Shown here: positions 52,769 through 63,837 of the stretch, piece by piece
Position numbering within the stretch: the first letter of the stretch is position 1
How the letters are laid out: each line of letters opens with the position of its first letter
Position numbers and translations under genes: made by a program
The notes under the pieces: generated by a model
Databases searched by the model: none
Seen by the model: only the letters and a program-made list of their open reading frames with translations
What the model was told of the DNA's origin: nothing
Origin: Streptosporangium lutulentum
Lineage (GTDB): Bacteria; Actinomycetota; Actinomycetes; Streptosporangiales; Streptosporangiaceae
DNA: 64,000 nucleotides
Direction: 5' to 3'
Assembly: GCF_030811455.1 (NCBI RefSeq)
Contig: NZ_JAUSQU010000001.1
Coordinates: 4,216,001-4,280,000, forward strand

Positions 52769-53587
52769 CTACTGGGGGCCTTCCGCCACCGCTCGCTCGA
52801 TCTCGGCGACGAGATCCGAGACCGGTGGAGCGCCGTCTCCCTTGCCCAGCCAGATGACGTACTCCACGTTTCCGGCCGGGCCCGGCAGCGGGCTCGCGGT
52901 GACGCCCCGCACGATCAGACCGAGCGTTTGCGCGGCTTCGGCCACATCCTGTACGGCTTGCGCCCTCAGCGCGGGATCCCGGACGACCCCGCCCGCGCCG
53001 ACCCGCTCCTTGCCGACCTCGAACTGGGGTTTGACCAGCATCGCGAAGTCCGCGTGCTCGGCGGCGCATCGGATGAGAGCGGGCAGCACCAGGCGCAGCG
53101 AGATGAAGGAGAGGTCACCGACGATCAGGGAGGGCGCCTCACCGACCATGTCAGGGGTCAGTTCCCTGACGTTGACCCGATCCATCACCGTGACCCTCTC
53201 GTCGGTCCGCAGGGACCACGCGAGCAGACCGCGTCCGACGTCGACGGCGAGCACGTGCGCCGCGTCGTTGCGCAGCAGCACATCGGTGAAGCCTCCGGTC
53301 GAGGCCCCGGCGTCCAGGCAGCGACGCCCCGCGACGGTGAGGCCCCGCGGCCCGAAGGCCTTCAGCGCACCGAGAAGCTTGTGCGCCCCCCTCGACACGT
53401 AGTCGGGCCCCTCGGCGGCCTCAGTGACCACGATCGCCGAGGCCGTGTCGACCTGGGTCGCGGGTTTCGCCGCCAGCTGACCACCGACGCTGACCCGGCC
53501 GGCCTCGATGAACTGGGCGGCCTGTTCCCTGGATCGGGCCAGTTTCCGGCGCACGAGCTCACTGTCGAGACGTGTCCGCCGGCTCAC
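52769..53587 (-). CDS. tlyA: TlyA family rRNA (cytidine-2'-O)-methyltransferase
   Basis: 272 residues: N-terminal S4 RNA-binding domain (RRKLARSREQAAQFIEAGRV) and an FtsJ-like methyltransferase domain with CLDAGASTGGFTDVLLRN (SAM loop) and LIVGDLSFISLRLVLPALIR. TlyA methylates 16S and 23S rRNA and affects capreomycin sensitivity in mycobacteria. The GTG start overlaps the stop of the preceding 57-codon gene (GTGA). Confidence 0.96.
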   Translation of the reverse strand: MSRRTRLDSELVRRKLARSREQAAQFIEAGRVSVGGQLAAKPATQVDTASAIVVTEAAEGPDYVSRGAHKLLGALKAFGPRGLTVAGRRCLDAGASTGGFTDVLLRNDAAHVLAVDVGRGLLAWSLRTDERVTVMDRVNVRELTPDMVGEAPSLIVGDLSFISLRLVLPALIRCAAEHADFAMLVKPQFEVGKERVGAGGVVRDPALRAQAVQDVAEAAQTLGLIVRGVTASPLPGPAGNVEYVIWLGKGDGAPPVSDLVAEIERAVAEGPQ

Positions 53588-54830: not shown

Positions 54831-55847
54831 CTATCTGGGGGACATCCGCCCTGCGAGCGAGGAGTCGAGCACCGCCTTCACGGCGTCCTCATCCGCCTGC
54901 CCGTCGCCGGCGGCCTCCCATGTCGCGGCGGAGGCCGCCCGGAGTCCGTCAATCGGCTTGCCCCCGCCGTCGAGGTGGAGACGACCCCCTTCCCATCGGG
55001 CCGTCCACCCCTCGCAGGCCCACCCGCTCTCACCACGTCGCACCTGCGGGTACGGCTGATGCAGAGCCGACAGGCCATCGGCGACATAGGTGGGCCGGTG
55101 CCGGGGCGCGGCGGTCAGCAGGTCCAGTGGGGTGGACACTCCGGTCAGCACCAGCAGGCTGTCCACTCCCGCGTTGGTCGCCCCCTCGATATCGGTGTCG
55201 AGCCGATCACCGACCACCAGCGGCCGTTTCGACCCGGTCCGCAATATCGACTCGCGATGCAGGGGCGGCTCCGGTTTTCCCGCGACGATCGGCTCCACAC
55301 CGGTCGCCGCGGCGATGACCCGGGTCATCGCGCCGTTGCCGGGCAGCTCGCCCCGGGCCACCGGCATGGTCAAGTCCTCGTTCGCGGCCACGAACAGGGC
55401 GCCCTGCCGTACGGCGAGCGTGCCCTCGGCCAGCAGGCCGTACGAGAGATCGGGCGCGATTCCCTGGACCACCGCGACGGGCGCGTCCATGGCGGTGCTG
55501 ACCGGACGCAGGCCGTGGACACGCAGGGCGCTGCGCAACCCCATTCCGCCGACCACCAGCACCGCCGCCCCCGGCTCGACCCGCTCGGCCACCAGCCGTG
55601 CGGCCGCCTGGGCCGAGGTGACCACGTCATCGGGAGTCGCCGGGGCCCCGAGTGCGCTCAGGTGCTGGGCGATGGCGCCGGGGGTGCGTGAGGCGTTGTT
55701 GGTCACGTAGGCGAGCCGCACGCCGCGTTCCGCCGCCAGCCGTAATGCCTCTGGAGCCCCCGGCACGGCGTTACGCCCGAGATACACCACCCCATCTAGA
55801 TCAAGGAGAAGGGTGTCGTACGGGTAGATCAGCGCTTTTATGTCCAC
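54831..55847 (-). CDS. HAD-superfamily (IIA) phosphatase
   Basis: 338 residues of the NagD/PGP-like class. Motif I LLLDLDGVVYLGRNAVPGA (nucleophile Asp), VTNNASRTPGAIA, motif KPEPP and VVGDRLDTDIEGATNAGVDS (motif IV acidic residues). C-terminal region about 60 residues longer than typical NagD. Corresponds to Rv1692, a glycerol-3-phosphate phosphatase in M. tuberculosis; that activity is a reasonable but untested guess. GTG start; follows the TPR gene by 25 bases. Confidence 0.92.
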   Translation of the reverse strand: MDIKALIYPYDTLLLDLDGVVYLGRNAVPGAPEALRLAAERGVRLAYVTNNASRTPGAIAQHLSALGAPATPDDVVTSAQAAARLVAERVEPGAAVLVVGGMGLRSALRVHGLRPVSTAMDAPVAVVQGIAPDLSYGLLAEGTLAVRQGALFVAANEDLTMPVARGELPGNGAMTRVIAAATGVEPIVAGKPEPPLHRESILRTGSKRPLVVGDRLDTDIEGATNAGVDSLLVLTGVSTPLDLLTAAPRHRPTYVADGLSALHQPYPQVRRGESGWACEGWTARWEGGRLHLDGGGKPIDGLRAASAATWEAAGDGQADEDAVKAVLDSSLAGRMSPR

Positions 55848-57838: not shown

Positions 57839-58357
57839 TCACCCGGGGGACGAGGCTTCCAGACGTCGCGGGACGGGCGTCGGCCCGCCGTCTCCGGTGG
57901 GATGCGCCGGCGCCGGACCGGCGAGCTGGGGCGCCTCCTCCTCCCCGGCCATGGCGCCCCTGGCACGCAGGAGTGAGCGCACCGGCCTCGGCGGGGCCGG
58001 CTGCGGAACCAGGCCGTCCTCGTCACCGTTCAGGACCGCGGCGGCCTGCCGTTCGAGGCGTCTTCCCGAGCTCACCTCGACCTCGTAGCCGGACGCCTTG
58101 GACCCCTCACTCCCCCACCAGCGGCGACGCAACGAACCCACCACTTCGACCATGTCGTCCGGCAGCCAGTCGGCCGCGGCCACAGTGACCTCGGGCTCGA
58201 ATGACATGCAGGGAATGGTGTCCACCCGGCCGCCACGGCCGCGGTGCTGCCTCCGGACGATCAGTCGCCAGGTGCCGAGCGTGCTTCCGCTCTGCAGCGA
58301 CCTGATGTGCACCGCTTCGGGCAGGCGGCCCACCAGCACGACCTCGTTGCGATCCAT
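57839..58357 (-). CDS. Single-stranded DNA-binding-like OB-fold protein
   Basis: 172 residues. N-terminal OB fold like SSB (MDRNEVVLVGRLPEAVHIRS; LGTWRLIVRRQHRGRGGRVD; DDMVEVVGSLRRRWW). The C-terminal 60 residues are Pro/Arg/Ala-rich and lack the acidic DDDIPF-type tip of true SSB, so it is an SSB paralogue rather than the replication SSB. Single gene divergent from the MBL gene at 58468. Confidence 0.82.
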   Translation of the reverse strand: MDRNEVVLVGRLPEAVHIRSLQSGSTLGTWRLIVRRQHRGRGGRVDTIPCMSFEPEVTVAAADWLPDDMVEVVGSLRRRWWGSEGSKASGYEVEVSSGRRLERQAAAVLNGDEDGLVPQPAPPRPVRSLLRARGAMAGEEEAPQLAGPAPAHPTGDGGPTPVPRRLEASSPG

Positions 58358-58467: not shown

Positions 58468-59394
58468 GTGGACAACATCACCGCCCTCGGCGGAGACGTC
58501 TATGAGATCGACACAAGGATGGCCGGATACTCCGGTATCACGGCGGGTTATCTGATTCTCGGAGACCGTCCCTGTCTGGTGGAGACAGGGACCTCCACCT
58601 CCGCCCCCGTGGTGCGCGACGCCCTGACCTCCCTGGGCGTCGGCGCGGGCGACCTCGCCACGGTCGTTGTGACGCACATCCATCTGGATCACGCCGGTGG
58701 GGTCGGCGACATCGCCGGGTTCTACCCCGAGGCGGAGATCGTGGTCCATGAGAAGGGCGCCCGGCACCTCGCCGATCCATCCCGGTTGATGTCCAGCGCC
58801 CGGATGGTCTGGGGCGACAAGCTGGACACGCTGTTCGGCGAGCTCTCCCCCACCGAACCCTCGCGGATCCGTGCGCTGGGCGACACCGGAGTCGTCGATC
58901 TCGGCAACGGGCGCATGCTGAGCAGCCACTACTCCCCCGGGCACGCCAAACACCATGTGGGATTGATCGACTCGGGCACCGGCGACCTCTACGTCGGCGA
59001 CGCCGCCGGGGTCTACCTGCCGCAGACGGGCGACCTGCGCCCCGCCACACCGCCACCGGACTTCGACCTGCAGACCGCGCTGGACTCGATCGCCCTGTTC
59101 GAGGCACTGGGCCCGCAACGACTCCTCTTCAGCCACTACGGGCCGGTCACGGACGTGGAGGAGACCCTGGGGCGTTCCGCGGAGGAACTACGCATCTGGG
59201 TCGACCTGACTCGTCAGGCCCACTCGCAGGGAATGGACCTGGACCACGCGGTGGCCATGGTCAGGGAACGCACGCAAGAACGTTACGCGGCGCTGAAAGC
59301 CGACGAGGCCACCGCCGAGCGGTTCGAGTTGCTCAGCGGTGCCCCGTCCAACGTGGCCGGAATCCTGCACTGGCTGGATCGAGTCCAACCGTAG
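58468..59394 (+). CDS. MBL-fold metallohydrolase
   Basis: 308 residues from the GTG at 58468 (GAGG six bases upstream), so the protein begins at the conserved LGGDVYEIDTRMAGYSGITA. Metal motif THIHLDHAGG, LSSHYSPGHAKHHVGLIDSG, DLYVGDAAGVYLP and LFSHYGPVTDVEETLG give a full binuclear site. A C-terminal helical extension (about 230-308) is typical of this actinobacterial group. An ATG at 58411 would add 19 residues. Substrate unknown. Confidence 0.9.
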   Translation: MDNITALGGDVYEIDTRMAGYSGITAGYLILGDRPCLVETGTSTSAPVVRDALTSLGVGAGDLATVVVTHIHLDHAGGVGDIAGFYPEAEIVVHEKGARHLADPSRLMSSARMVWGDKLDTLFGELSPTEPSRIRALGDTGVVDLGNGRMLSSHYSPGHAKHHVGLIDSGTGDLYVGDAAGVYLPQTGDLRPATPPPDFDLQTALDSIALFEALGPQRLLFSHYGPVTDVEETLGRSAEELRIWVDLTRQAHSQGMDLDHAVAMVRERTQERYAALKADEATAERFELLSGAPSNVAGILHWLDRVQP

Positions 59395-59407
59395 AAAGCC
59401 CGGTTGT

Positions 59408-59445
59408 CCCGTCTTGGGTGAGCCCGTTCATTCACCCAAGACGGG
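59408..59445. terminator. Bidirectional terminator
   Basis: A perfect 14-bp stem (59408-59421 with 59432-59445) between the convergent MBL and repeat-protein genes; the latter's stop is 8 bases away. Confidence 0.9.
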
Positions 59446-59452
59446 CACGCGA

Positions 59453-62197
59453 CTACTTCTTCTCGACCTTGTCCGGGCCCTCGTCCTCGTCCTCGTCGTC
59501 GTCGTCGTCCTCGTCGTCGATATTGGCGGGATCGCTGAGGATGTCGCCGAAATCAGGCTCGATGAAGGCCGGGCCGACACCTGCTTCGACCTTCTCCGGC
59601 TTCTCTTCGGCCTTCTGCTCCACGGGGGGAGACTGGACTTCGGGAGCGTTGTCGATGACGGGCTCGTCCTCCTCGTCATCGAGGTCGTCATCGCTTTCGA
59701 TCTGCTCGTCGAGGGTGGCGACATCGTCGATGTCGACGTCGAGTTCGTCGTCGATATCCGCCTCCCCCTCGTCGTCGTCCTCGTCGTCGTCCTCGTCATC
59801 GCCGAGTTCGTCGTTGACGAGCTCGCCGTCCTCGCCGTCCTCGTCTTCTTCGAGGTCTTCGATCACGGCGCCGGTCAACTCCGCGTAGCGCTCGGCGGCG
59901 TCGGTCTCACCGTCCTCGTCGAAGGCCATCGAACGACCGAACCACTCGGCGGCGGGACCTTCATGACCCGCTTCCGCCAGGGCGTCGGCGTAGGCGAAGG
60001 CGAGGCGAGCCGACCAGGGCTGCGGACGAGTGTCACGCAGCTCGGGCAGGCGCTGGAGGGTGATGACCGCGGCGTCCTTCTGCCCGAGATCCCGGCGAGC
60101 GCCGGACTCCACGATGGCGAGCTCGATCTTGCCCATACGGTCGAGGTGCTCGGCCTCCTTGGAGCGGACCAGGTCAAGCGCACGCTCAGGACGGCCGAGA
60201 CCGCGCTCGCAATCCGCCATGACCGGCAGGAACGCGTCAGAACCCGTCATACGACGGGCGGCTCGCAGGTCGCTGAGCGCCTCGGCGAAGTGCCCCGCAT
60301 GATAGGCGGCGATACCGACGGCCTCGCGGATCACACCGATCCTGGCCGCGAAGCGACGGGCAACCTTGGTGTGCTCGTACGCCTCCTCGGCGTTGCCGTC
60401 GCCAAGGGCCCGCTCGGCCGCCACGAGGTGACGGGAGATCAGGTCGGCGAGATCGAGCGGAAGGGAACGCAGCTCTTCGCGGATCTCCTTGTCGAGCTCC
60501 TCCGCGGTGATGTCCGGCGCGAGGGGAGGCAGTTCTTCACGCTCCCGGCTCGGAGCCTCATCGCGGCTGTTAGGCCGTTCGTCCCGGCTGTAACGGGTAC
60601 GGGAACCATCGCCTTCACTGCGGAATCCACCGTCGCGGTAACCGGAGGGGCGTCCACCACGGTCATCGCGGTTGAAGGAAGGACGATCGCCGCCACGATC
60701 GTCGCGGTTGAAGGGAGGCCTGTCCCCACCGCGGCTGTCGCGGTTGAACGGAGGACGGTCACCACCACGGTTATCCCGATTAAACGGAGGACGGTCACCG
60801 CCACGGCTGTCGCGATTGAACGCCGGTCGGTCACCGCCACTGCCGCCGTACTGGCTACGGGACTGGTCACGGTCACCGTAACGCGGACCACTTTCACGCG
60901 GCCCGGAAGGCCTCTGCCCACCACCGAAACGATCGTCGCGGTTGAACGCGGGACGATCACCCCCACGGCTGTCCCGGTTGAACGGAGGACGGTCACCACC
61001 ACGGTTATCCCGATTAAACGGAGGACGGTCACCGCCACGGTTGTCGCGGTTGAAGGGAGGCCTGTCCCCACCGCGGCTGTCGCGGTTGAACGGAGGACGA
61101 TCACCGCCACGGTTATCCCGATTGAACGGAGGCCTCTGCCCACCACCGGAACGGTCATCACGGTTAAACGGGGGACGATCACCCCCACGGTTATCCCGGT
61201 TGAACGCGGGACGGTCACCACCACGATCGTCGCGGTTGAACGCCGGCCTGTCACCACCACGGTTATCCCGATTGAACGGAGGCCTCTGCCCACCACCGGA
61301 ACGATCGTCCCGGTTGAACGGAGGACGGTCGCCCCCACGGCTGTCGCGGTTGAACGGAGGACGGTCACCACCACGGTTATCCCGATTAAAGGGAGGACGG
61401 TCCCCGCCACGGCTGTCGCGGTTGAACGGGGGACGGTCACCACCACGGTTATCCCGATTGAACGCGGGACGGTCCCCACCACGGTTATCGCGATTAAACG
61501 GGGGACGGTCCCCACCACGGTTATCCCGATTGAACGCGGGACGGTCCCCACCACGGTTATCCCGGTTGAAGGGAGGCCTCTGCCCACCACCGGAACGGTC
61601 ATCACGGTTAAACGGGGGACGGTCGCCGCCACGGCTGTCGCGGTTGAACGCCGGTCGGTCACCGCCACTGCCGCCGTACTGGCTACGGGACTGGTCACGG
61701 TCACCGTAACGCGGACCACCTTCACGCGGCCCAGAAGACCTCTGCCCACCACCGGAACGATCGTCACGGTTGAACGGAGGACGATCACCACCACGGTTAT
61801 CCCGATTGAACGCGGGACGGTCACCGCCACGGCTGTCACGGTTGAACGGAGGACGATCACCACCGCGGTTATCCCGATTGAACGGGGGCCTCTGCCCACC
61901 ACCGGAACGGTCATCACGGTTGAACGGGGGACGGTCGCCACCACGGCTGTCACGGTTGAACGGGGGACGATCACCGCCGCGGTTATCCCGGTTGAAGGGA
62001 GGCCTTTCGCCCCTATCACGAGACCCGTACGAACCGCCCGAATTCCCTTCACGGCGCTCGCCATATCGGGGGCCATCACCCGGCCGCCCCCTGTCACTGC
62101 CTGCGCGGTCGCCGCGCTGGCCTCCCCTATCACCGTATCCGCGGCTTTCGCCTTCTTCGCGTCGGCCTGCGTCGTCGCGCCCGTTATCACTGTTCAC
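59453..62197 (-). CDS. Giant repeat protein: RGG-like repeat IDR + TPR-like core + acidic tail (914 aa)
   Basis: Three parts. (1) Residues 1 to about 550: disordered, first a Gly/Arg/Asp-rich segment, then about 32 tandem 12-residue units RP(P/A/S)FNRD(N/S/D)RGGD, some ending RSGGGQ instead. A 28-residue spacer (GPRYGDRDQSRSQYGGSGGD inside) occurs twice. (2) About 550-770: helical/TPR-like core beginning LPPLAPDITAEELDKEIREE, with SRHLVAAERALGDGNAEEAY and HAGHFAEALSDLRAARRMTG. (3) About 770-914: very acidic Asp/Glu runs ending in EKVEKK. The tract is basic and aromatic, the tail acidic. Similar TPR proteins with RG-rich N-termini occur in other actinomycetes (recalled), but none has a described role known to me. 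GTG start with weak Shine-Dalgarno sequence. Confidence 0.88.
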   Translation of the reverse strand: MNSDNGRDDAGRREEGESRGYGDRGGQRGDRAGSDRGRPGDGPRYGERREGNSGGSYGSRDRGERPPFNRDNRGGDRPPFNRDSRGGDRPPFNRDDRSGGGQRPPFNRDNRGGDRPPFNRDSRGGDRPAFNRDNRGGDRPPFNRDDRSGGGQRSSGPREGGPRYGDRDQSRSQYGGSGGDRPAFNRDSRGGDRPPFNRDDRSGGGQRPPFNRDNRGGDRPAFNRDNRGGDRPPFNRDNRGGDRPAFNRDNRGGDRPPFNRDSRGGDRPPFNRDNRGGDRPPFNRDSRGGDRPPFNRDDRSGGGQRPPFNRDNRGGDRPAFNRDDRGGDRPAFNRDNRGGDRPPFNRDDRSGGGQRPPFNRDNRGGDRPPFNRDSRGGDRPPFNRDNRGGDRPPFNRDNRGGDRPPFNRDSRGGDRPAFNRDDRFGGGQRPSGPRESGPRYGDRDQSRSQYGGSGGDRPAFNRDSRGGDRPPFNRDNRGGDRPPFNRDSRGGDRPPFNRDDRGGDRPSFNRDDRGGRPSGYRDGGFRSEGDGSRTRYSRDERPNSRDEAPSREREELPPLAPDITAEELDKEIREELRSLPLDLADLISRHLVAAERALGDGNAEEAYEHTKVARRFAARIGVIREAVGIAAYHAGHFAEALSDLRAARRMTGSDAFLPVMADCERGLGRPERALDLVRSKEAEHLDRMGKIELAIVESGARRDLGQKDAAVITLQRLPELRDTRPQPWSARLAFAYADALAEAGHEGPAAEWFGRSMAFDEDGETDAAERYAELTGAVIEDLEEDEDGEDGELVNDELGDDEDDDEDDDEGEADIDDELDVDIDDVATLDEQIESDDDLDDEEDEPVIDNAPEVQSPPVEQKAEEKPEKVEAGVGPAFIEPDFGDILSDPANIDDEDDDDDEDEDEGPDKVEKK
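60655..62005 (-). repeat. Minisatellite tract of 36-bp units within the repeat protein gene
   Basis: About 32 imperfect 36-bp units (some 42 bp) encode RP(P/A)FNRDxRGGD. Units differ mainly at synonymous or N/S/D positions and at P/A. Near-identical longer blocks around 60835-60920 and 61660-61745 show segment duplication, so recombination or slippage has shaped the tract. Confidence 0.93.
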
Positions 62198-62589
62198 TTC
62201 TGGTCCATTCGTTTGCTCACTCGGCGAGCGCGTCCCGTCTCCTCATATGGATGGGACGATTCGCTGTGCGGGCGGTCTCCGGCCGCGGGGTGCGCCCCGT
62301 TCGCTATCGCTGCCCCGCCCTATCGTGGTCTGGCGCGACGAAGGCCATCCTCGGTGGGATGGCCCGGCCCCTCCAGCCTAGCAAGCTCACGAAAGTCCAC
62401 ACGCCTTATCCCTTGTGTATCCCTTATGCCCACAGGCGATCATGCACCCTGAAGTCAGCCATCAGGCATACTCGGCACCCACGTCAGCCGAGGGATGAGC
62501 CCCCACATCGCAGCCCGTTAACTCGGACGACGAGCCGGCGGTAGTCCCCCTCCGATACTGAGCGGGTGGCAGTGAGCGCCAGGCCTGGC
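62198..62589. other. Intergenic region upstream of the repeat-protein gene
   Basis: 392 bases. On the minus strand an ATG at 62209-62207 starts the four-codon ORF MDQK, whose stop overlaps the repeat-protein GTG. On the plus strand TATCCCTTGTGTATCCCTTAT-like repeats occur near 62406-62427. No gene is supported. Confidence 0.4.
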
Positions 62590-63537
62590 TCAGTTCGCGA
62601 AGCCGTCCAGAGCAGCAGGAACCGCCTTGGCCATGGTACTGCTGCCGGTATGCCCCGAATCATCCACTACAACGAGCCGTGCATCAGGCCAGGCCTGGGC
62701 CAACTGCCAGGCGTTCTCCAGGGGGCAGCCCAGGTCGAAGCGTCCGTGGACAAGCACGCCCGGGATGCCGGCCAGCATGTACGCATCGCGCAACAAGATG
62801 CCTTCCTCCAGCCAGGCGGCGTTGGAGAAATAGTGAGCGCAGATGCGGGTGAAGGCCAGCAAATCTGCCTCTGGCCGGTCGCTGTAGGCGTTCGGCTTGC
62901 CGTTGACCTCCAGGGAGATCACCGCGTCCTCCCAGTCCGCCCAGTCGTGAGCGGCCTTGGCGCGTACGGCGAGGTCGGGGTCGGACATGAGCCGTGCGTA
63001 GGCGGCCAGCAGGTCACCGTCGCGTTCGGCCTCGGGAACGCCCTCGCGGAAGCGCTGCCACTGCTCGGGGAAGAAACGGCCCACACCGTGGTAGAGCCAG
63101 TCGATCTCAGAGCGGCGGGTCATACTGACCCCGCAGATGACCATCTCCGACACCCGCGTCGGGTGAGCTTCGGCGTAAGCAAGCATCAGCGTGGATCCCC
63201 ACGATCCGCCATAGAGCAACCATCGGTCGACTTCGAGATGCTCGCGCAACCGTTCCATGTCAGCGACCAGGCGCTGGGTGGTGTTGGTGCTCAGATCGGC
63301 GGCCGGGTCGCTGGCGTGCGGCAGACTCCGACCGCAGTTGCGCTGATCGAACAGGATGATGCGGTAGCGCTCGGGATCGAATCCGCGGCGTTGACCAGGC
63401 GTACAGCCCGCGCCGGGACCGCCGTGGACGACGAGCGCGGGCTTACCCTCGGGGTTGCCGCAGACCTCCCAGTAGACGAGGTGGCCGTCACCGGTATCGA
63501 GGTGCCCATGGTCGTAGGGCTCGATCGGGGGATACAT
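62590..63537 (-). CDS. pip: Prolyl aminopeptidase (proline iminopeptidase)
   Basis: Alpha/beta-hydrolase that removes N-terminal proline from peptides. 315 residues from the ATG at 63537. VVHGGPGAGCTPGQRRGFD (oxyanion loop), DQRNCGRSLPHASDPAADLS, nucleophile Ser in LLYGGSWGSTLMLAYAEAHP, acid in VHGRFDLGCPLENAWQLA and His in VVDDSGHTG. All family marks are intact. Cytoplasmic, no signal. Single gene between the repeat-protein gene and the rRNA terminator. Confidence 0.95.
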   Translation of the reverse strand: MYPPIEPYDHGHLDTGDGHLVYWEVCGNPEGKPALVVHGGPGAGCTPGQRRGFDPERYRIILFDQRNCGRSLPHASDPAADLSTNTTQRLVADMERLREHLEVDRWLLYGGSWGSTLMLAYAEAHPTRVSEMVICGVSMTRRSEIDWLYHGVGRFFPEQWQRFREGVPEAERDGDLLAAYARLMSDPDLAVRAKAAHDWADWEDAVISLEVNGKPNAYSDRPEADLLAFTRICAHYFSNAAWLEEGILLRDAYMLAGIPGVLVHGRFDLGCPLENAWQLAQAWPDARLVVVDDSGHTGSSTMAKAVPAALDGFAN

Positions 63538-63675
63538 CGCTCCAAGATACAAGCGCCACCGAAGGCCCAGACCGGGAAGCGGTCCACCCTCTGGAAATGC
63601 ATCCCAAGAGAGGAAAAGCCCTCAAGGGGACCCCCGGGAAAAGCCCTCAACGAAAAAAAGGGGGCTGAAAATGAA

Positions 63676-63708
63676 AGAAGGGCCACCCCGCATGGGGTGA
63701 CCCTTCTT
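63676..63708 (-). terminator. Rho-independent terminator of the rRNA operon
   Basis: A stem of about 14 bp with one G-T pair (63676-63689 with 63694-63708) just beyond the 5S 3' end. On the minus strand it is followed by TTTCATTTTC. Confidence 0.88.
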
Positions 63709-63718
63709 ATCAAAGATT

Positions 63719-63837
63719 GTCCGGCGGCGACCTACTCTCCCACACCGTCCCCGGTGCAGTACCATCGGCGCTGAAGAGCTTAACTTCCGGGTTCGGAATG
63801 TAACCGGGTGTTTCCCCTTCGCCATAACCGCCGTAAC
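63719..63837 (-). rRNA. rrf: 5S ribosomal RNA
   Basis: The minus strand carries the 5S hallmarks: TTACGGCGGTTATGGC at the 5' end, GGTTACATTCCGAACCCGG and AGCGCCGATGGTACTGC in the middle, GGGAGAGTAGGTCGCCGCCG at the 3' end pairing with the start. About 119 nt. Last gene of an rRNA operon that enters from the right edge. Confidence 0.95.

Follow-up and report, generated by a model that had tools for sequence, protein, structure and literature searches.

A predicted tetratricopeptide repeat protein with an Arg/Phe/Gly/Asp repeat tract is encoded behind an rRNA operon in Streptosporangium lutulentum, a position usually shared by its relatives in Actinomycetota

What role could Streptosporangium lutulentum have for a 914-amino-acid (aa) protein that joins a long Arg/Phe/Gly/Asp repeat tract to a predicted tetratricopeptide repeat (TPR) core and an acidic tail? 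The gene, with a GTG start, occupies positions 59453..62197 (minus strand) of the 64,000-nucleotide (nt) stretch of contig NZ_JAUSQU010000001.1 analysed here and referred to as the window. An earlier note on this DNA had proposed the layout of repeats, helical core and acidic tail, which the open reading frame (ORF) and composition counts confirm, and had seen in the protein a candidate condensate scaffold with an RNA-related role. In Actinomycetota, the phylum in which the family was sought, relatives of the gene usually lie just behind a ribosomal RNA (rRNA) operon, and this suggests that the protein assists rRNA synthesis or the assembly of ribosomes and has been overlooked in that role. 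The place behind the rRNA operon and the phylum-wide occurrence of the core family are new here; no description of an rRNA link of this gene family, that of the mycobacterial Rv1691, came up in searches of open-licence papers.

On the minus strand of the window, a 16S-23S-5S operon, which runs past the window end and whose last gene is a 5S rRNA detected by rRNA search at 63719..63835, is followed by a terminator-like hairpin recognised in the sequence (63675..63708), a prolyl aminopeptidase gene (62590..63552; TIGR01249 above cut-off) and the repeat-protein gene. Hairpins resembling terminators also occur behind the 5S rRNA in several intergenic sequences of other loci; the prolyl aminopeptidase has no match in 20 regions of other genomes. 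Among 20 gene-centred regions, rRNA lies directly upstream of the gene in all six from Streptosporangium and all four from family f3 (16S rRNA being undetected in two of the latter), and also in f5, f6, f14, f27 (L143) and two of the three f4 g4 genomes, the order in f4 g4 being tyrS, rRNA, core, HAD. No rRNA precedes the gene in L140, the L138 region stops at the contig edge, and in L144 and L145, where BLAST missed the core, a core profile places rRNA 12.3 kb and 0.7 kb away. The start codon lies 238-668 nt behind the 5S rRNA in Streptosporangium and, where it is clear, 80-133 nt behind it in f3 (L135), f4, f5 and f6; in the other regions of f3 and in those of f14 and f27, the earliest in-frame start runs into or adjoins the 5S rRNA gene and is probably not the real one. 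One genome (G230) has two rRNA operons with an identical copy of the gene behind each (L158, L159). The identity extends through 3661 nt, beginning at the end of the retrieved sequence and ceasing some 10 nt beyond the core, which would fit joint homogenisation of gene and operon.

To count this arrangement across the phylum, 53 genomes of at most 10 contigs with a strong core match at a stated place were all searched for 5S rRNA. Left out of the count were G297 and G394 (matches at contig edges) and two genomes, G229 and G306, for which no location was given; outside the denominator stand G100, G269, G275 and G054 (5S rRNA on a different contig) and G411 (5S matches not listed). In 44 of the 48 determinable genomes, which are not independent of one another (f1 and f3 contribute eight each), and in 17 of 19 families, a same-strand 5S rRNA gene precedes the core by no more than 3.5 kb (117-3184 nt); the chance of such adjacency is about 0.0003-0.0016 per genome. 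In draft genomes, 47 of 62 plus-strand matches lie at most 3.5 kb from a contig edge on the rRNA side, where 9.1 were expected. The main rival to an rRNA-related role, which we consider rather unlikely, takes the rRNA neighbour as inherited gene order, assigns the TPR core an unrelated protein-protein task and regards the tract as a tolerated repeat expansion with a composition retained for solubility. Two controls bear on the question of order. The downstream gene tlyA has stayed close in nearly as many genomes as rRNA (41 of 48, counted up to 10 kb away and on the same strand), as inherited order would have it, whereas tyrS, found in 46 genomes, lies at most 12 kb upstream in 26 of them; the rRNA link persists where tyrS has moved away, and its outlasting the tyrS link argues against inheritance.

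The part of the protein that carries the family is the core (residues 554-778, 225 aa; 59864..60538, minus strand), delimited by searches, model and phylum-wide comparison and searched as residues 554-780 (window 59858-60538). Its best TPR score in Pfam is 16.1 bits against a gathering threshold of 30.1; Pfam, NCBIfam and PADLOC give no specific family for the window protein, the core having no NCBIfam match near the cut-off, and TPR_12, present at E <= 0.01 in 28 of 32 relatives, is not detected in the window core. An AlphaFold2 model built from an alignment of 47 sequences is all helical, with a predicted local distance difference test (pLDDT) score of 95.2 and a predicted template modelling score (pTM) of 0.89, and its best Foldseek matches are consensus TPRs, a Rap regulator (template modelling (TM) score 0.73 by query) and TTC0263 (0.65). 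Model and matches bear out the TPR-like core proposed earlier and predict a TPR solenoid whose nearest relatives are not informative; since Foldseek returns generic TPR proteins, the fold does not reveal a partner. A match to the Spt5 CTD (E 0.0032; 18.4 bits against 25.4) was rejected as a chance effect of low complexity. The gene is present in one copy in every genome searched in the genus (16 of 16); core identity is 96% in S. subroseum and 47-50% in the f4 g4 genomes. With a profile built from 32 cores, 259 of 396 genomes of the phylum match at E <= 1e-3; the E-values, as read from the listed rows, are bimodal, with 85 weak (E > 1e-12) and 174 strong matches. The core belongs to an actinobacterial family that is spread through the phylum.

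Gene order also connects the window gene to mycobacteria. In its own genome the neighbourhood reads tyrS, rRNA operon, gene, HAD, tlyA, NAD kinase, RecN; within the window, a HAD-IIA hydrolase identified by domain search (54831..55847, minus strand), the neighbour that supports Rv1691-Rv1692 orthology, and a TlyA-family rRNA methyltransferase (52769..53587, minus strand) are followed by NAD kinase, RecN and SteA. A small divergent SSB-fold protein is encoded at 57839-58357 on the minus strand; it scores 30 bits in Pfam, where the cut-off is 26. According to the available parts of the literature, mycobacterial rrnB is placed behind tyrS (PMC10218544), and TyrRS is MSMEG_3758 and the 16S and 23S rRNAs are MSMEG_3757 and 3756 (PMC4721953, PMC3779251), so that MSMEG_3754, going by locus number, comes after rrnB; the operon genes are given as lprJ, Rv1691, Rv1692, Rv1693, tlyA, ppnK and recN (PMC3072309). 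The window gene thus shares with Rv1691/MSMEG_3754 the TPR annotation and the neighbourhood tyrS, rrnB, gene, Rv1692 HAD, tlyA, ppnK, recN, and by synteny we judge it an orthologue of this uncharacterised gene, although the orthologues of the mycobacteria-like f4 g4 group, with N-terminal tails of 39-77 aa and no acidic tail, are built differently from the window protein. Could the protein act together with the adjacent HAD-IIA phosphatase in the metabolism of glycerol-3-phosphate? In L156 (G281), which has a short N-terminal tail, a single open frame runs from the TPR core into the HAD hydrolase domain, in L137-L142 (f2, f4, f5, f6) HAD is the next gene, 0.65-1.2 kb after the core start, and Rv1692 is described as a glycerol-3-phosphate phosphatase in the accessible text of PMC12722247. 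In the window, however, other genes intervene, and such a partnership, which would give the Arg-rich tails and the rRNA link no role, strikes us as highly improbable.

As far as the available text of PMC7092591 goes, MSMEG_3754 is the orthologue of Rv1691, belongs to the high-confidence set (214 of 275 proteins) that co-purified with cross-linked RNA polymerase beta subunit, brought down no DNA in a FLAG pull-down and, in the view of those authors, may be RNA associated. It is also listed among ClpC1 interactors in the accessible part of PMC10433963, and the portions of PMC5741613 and PMC13118837 at hand add nothing further on the gene. The RNA-related role put forward in the earlier note finds support both in this co-purification without DNA and in the position behind the rRNA operon. 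The co-purification could also be expected of a general RNA polymerase-associated factor acting at many genes and not on rRNA in particular. We regard that as quite unlikely: it leaves the link to the rRNA operon unexplained, the pull-down was without DNA, and ribosome components are also within the RNA polymerase pull-down set, to judge from the same text (PMC7092591).

The repeat tract (residues 65-545; 60563..62005, minus strand) consists of 32 RP[PAS]FNRD units, mostly of 12 aa, with a longer SGGGQ or FGGGQ linker after six of them and two longer inserts. The window protein has 32 FNRD, 32 RP[PAS]FNRD, 25 RGGD and 27 RGG motifs, and residues 1-553 hold 23.5% R, 19.5% G, 15.2% D and 6.1% F, with a net charge of +34. 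Between the 32 units, codon columns vary at nine of nine third positions, three of nine first and one of nine second positions, and non-synonymous (pN) and synonymous (pS) differences in the gene frame are 0.079 and 0.601, giving a pN/pS of 0.13. One opposite-strand frame that shares the wobble position gives 0.16, and the minus frame alone reads on into the conserved core. The repeats are under protein-level selection, and the tract is a coding feature, neither chance nor a reading artefact. A plus-strand open frame of 1037 aa (59339-62452), which spans the tract and has its wobble position in common with the gene frame, is probably an artefact. Codon choice is unusual in the N-terminal part (60539-62197), where GC content at third codon positions is 0.59, against 0.82 in the core and 0.84 in the tail. 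The tract has no second copy in its own genome, the sole other match being the identical DNA on the opposite strand.

An RGG box is usually defined by di- or tri-RGG, that is, RGG motifs with 0-4 residues between them. The window protein has no di-RGG, no tri-RGG and one tri-RG, and the tract cannot be called a classical RGG-box repeat. It is instead an unusually well-mixed Arg/Asp polyampholyte, with a patterning value of 0.0116 against 0.0666 in shuffles and a net charge of +0.07 per residue. The description of the protein as charge-segregated holds at long range, where the acidic tail brings charge decoration for the entire protein to -30.9 (shuffles +14.5), and fails locally, the local patterning measure being at shuffle level (0.070 against 0.068) and the tract well mixed.

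How general is this design? Tail statistics were drawn from 127 complete ORFs, after 37 open-ended ORFs had been dropped. The N-terminal tail (N-tail) is net positive in 127 of 127, with group medians of 18-33% R and 11-36% G; it reaches 690 aa, measures 11-77 aa in a group of metagenome-assembled lineages, and in L093 (3 aa) probably reflects a wrong start. Its repeat units differ by lineage, being RDGDRPYAKRDGE in f58, GGFRGGDRRE in f56, GGKPADTRGG in f57 and GGFRRDD in f3. The motif FRGGDR is present in 12 of 164 tails, reaching 28 copies in L155, where shuffles would give 0.04, and forms arrays in the tails of Micromonosporaceae and f56; tri-RGG occurs in 8 of 164 family tails, and F exceeds Y in 78 of 120 aromatic tails. 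Apparently low-Arg tails are those of L046, L082, L102 and L118, and the L046 tract contains a run of N (about 1706 to 2232) in a draft assembly; given this run and several draft contigs that end in or near the tract, tract length in public records is unreliable. Long Arg/Gly-rich N-tails recur across the phylum, built from different repeats, and comparable Arg-rich tails throughout it exclude the lineage-specific frameshift artefact that the earlier note had raised. A tolerated expansion, as in the main rival, would fit units that differ between lineages, a tract that ranges from about ten to 690 aa and a core that is the most conserved part; the pN/pS between units and the unfailing positive charge of the N-tails speak against it.

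The acidic tail of the window protein, recognised by composition (residues 779-914 and stop; 59453..59863, minus strand), has 136 aa with 30% D, 21% E and a net charge of -64. Acidic C-terminal tails are present in f1, f2, f3, f6, f56, f58, f60 and Micromonosporaceae, with group medians down to net -60, and the C-terminal tail is absent or of at most two residues in f4 g4, f4 g5, f14, f21, f27, f29, f36, f42, f43, f67, f72 and f74, the acidic tail thus lying outside the minimal design of the family. Over 30 group medians, which are not phylogenetically independent, tail net charge correlates with the acidic (rho -0.73) and the aromatic (rho -0.72) content of the tract and not with tract net charge (rho -0.09). 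Such strongly acidic tails would suit a ribosomal-protein chaperone, in which TPR core and acidic tail keep a basic ribosomal protein bound up to its encounter with rRNA and the tract serves for targeting, and yeast indeed has TPR chaperones of ribosomal proteins. With the tail missing in many lineages and no ribosomal-protein partner known, we think this very unlikely.

The gene is preceded by a conserved leader that would form its 5' untranslated region (62198..62374, minus strand), 177 nt between the GTG start and a putative -10 element, TAGGCT (62375..62380, minus strand), which is conserved in aligned leaders and may belong to the gene's own promoter. At 16 other loci, some of them one genome fetched twice, the leader is 82-97% identical over 193-220 nt, with shorter matches in other Streptosporangiaceae. 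In 13 leaders from Streptosporangium and near genera, 97.4% of cells are paired; six pairs (10 cells) show changes in both partners, where shuffles give 2.3 (2.6), and further pair types in this alignment (19 against 17.6, reached in 104 of 500 shuffles) are not above shuffles. In 23 Nonomuraea leaders, both-side changes number 4 (6) against 1.2 (1.3). Covariation therefore suggests a structured leader, with a 5' hairpin at 62343-62365, even though single-sequence folding is weak (z -1.7). Rfam has no match for the leader, which is single copy in its own genome, and the reading of a wider regulon was rejected; a Nonomuraea model run on 48 loci gave five clear matches, all in Streptosporangiaceae, the next being L142 (E 0.02). 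A role as rRNA mimic was also rejected, the longest shared word being 9 nt against about 10 in shuffles. The leader is a possible autoregulatory element of Streptosporangiaceae.

The nearest likeness in design is to nucleolar proteins. According to the available text of PMC9633708, the nucleolar RG/RGG motif FRGGDRGGFR occurs in proteins such as nucleolin and C. elegans NUCL-1, whose layout, like that of the window protein, combines Arg/Gly/Phe-rich disordered repeats with an acidic domain; the F-rich motif resembles the tracts of the Micromonosporaceae and f56 orthologues, and an rRNA link is common to nucleolin-type proteins and the Actinomycetota family. Nucleolin, however, has RRMs, whereas the window protein has a TPR core and Asp-rich units, with neither tri-RGG nor FRGGDR, and shows no RRM among its whole-protein Pfam matches at E <= 1. 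We take the likeness as apparently convergent low-complexity sequence and claim no homology. Nucleolus-like foci at rRNA operons are described in E. coli (PMC5996182, in its accessible part), and these RNA polymerase foci represent an rRNA-synthesis compartment of the kind where such a scaffold could act; they were described with NusA and NusB, whereas the present family was sought in Actinomycetota.

With somewhat less than even confidence, we favour the view that this rRNA-operon-linked TPR protein is a multivalent scaffold for RNA or ribonucleoprotein (RNP) at rRNA synthesis or early ribosome assembly. The protein would work like nucleolar RG/RGG proteins without being one of them, in what seems the most economical account; its contact with RNA and specificity for rRNA, the work of its tail and any condensation are inferred. 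Through its approximately 32 Arg/Phe stickers, spaced by Asp, the tract may touch nascent rRNA or the surfaces of RNPs weakly at many points, and the TPR solenoid may be the docking site of one particular protein, possibly close to RNA polymerase during elongation or on an intermediate of assembly. Where a lineage has an acidic, aromatic tract, the acidic tail could tune it; synthesis beside the operon may help the protein reach its RNA, and the structured leader may provide feedback control in Streptosporangiaceae. The earlier idea of a condensate scaffold, approached here through composition and charge pattern only, is partly supported: it keeps its TPR core and its RNA-related context and loses its classical RGG box.

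Several observations weigh against an RNA or RNP scaffold of this kind. The Pfam scan of the window protein shows no RNA-binding fold, and FRGGDR is missing from it. Asp largely offsets Arg in the tract, which should weaken RNA binding; tract length varies greatly, down to the short f4 g4 N-tails, and the leader has no resemblance to rRNA. The published pull-down set is a broad one of 275 proteins, as far as the accessible text tells (PMC7092591). Conserved gene order could be inherited, and adjacency to 5S rRNA is missing in four of the 48 genomes (G165, G031, G095, G260), so that, with G165 still having the gene, the position is not essential. We consider unlikely a bolder form of the scaffold proposal, in which a dedicated Actinomycetota scaffold encoded behind the rRNA operon would organise the making of rRNA and the assembly of ribosomes in a nucleolus-like phase, convergent with nucleolin-type proteins, with a sticker tract that turns over while its composition is kept and, in Streptosporangiaceae, a leader through which the protein controls its own level.

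Spatial organisation of bacterial rRNA synthesis is still called unclear in the available text of PMC10450203, and the family offers a concrete protein for its study. It would also provide an evolutionary test of sticker-spacer ideas, with orthologues whose repeats differ while Arg, Gly and positive net charge are kept and several lineages are acidic-tailed. If the proposed rRNA role is true, a phylum that counts antibiotic producers and major pathogens among its members would have in this gene's product a conserved and so far unrecognised participant in making rRNA or assembling ribosomes.

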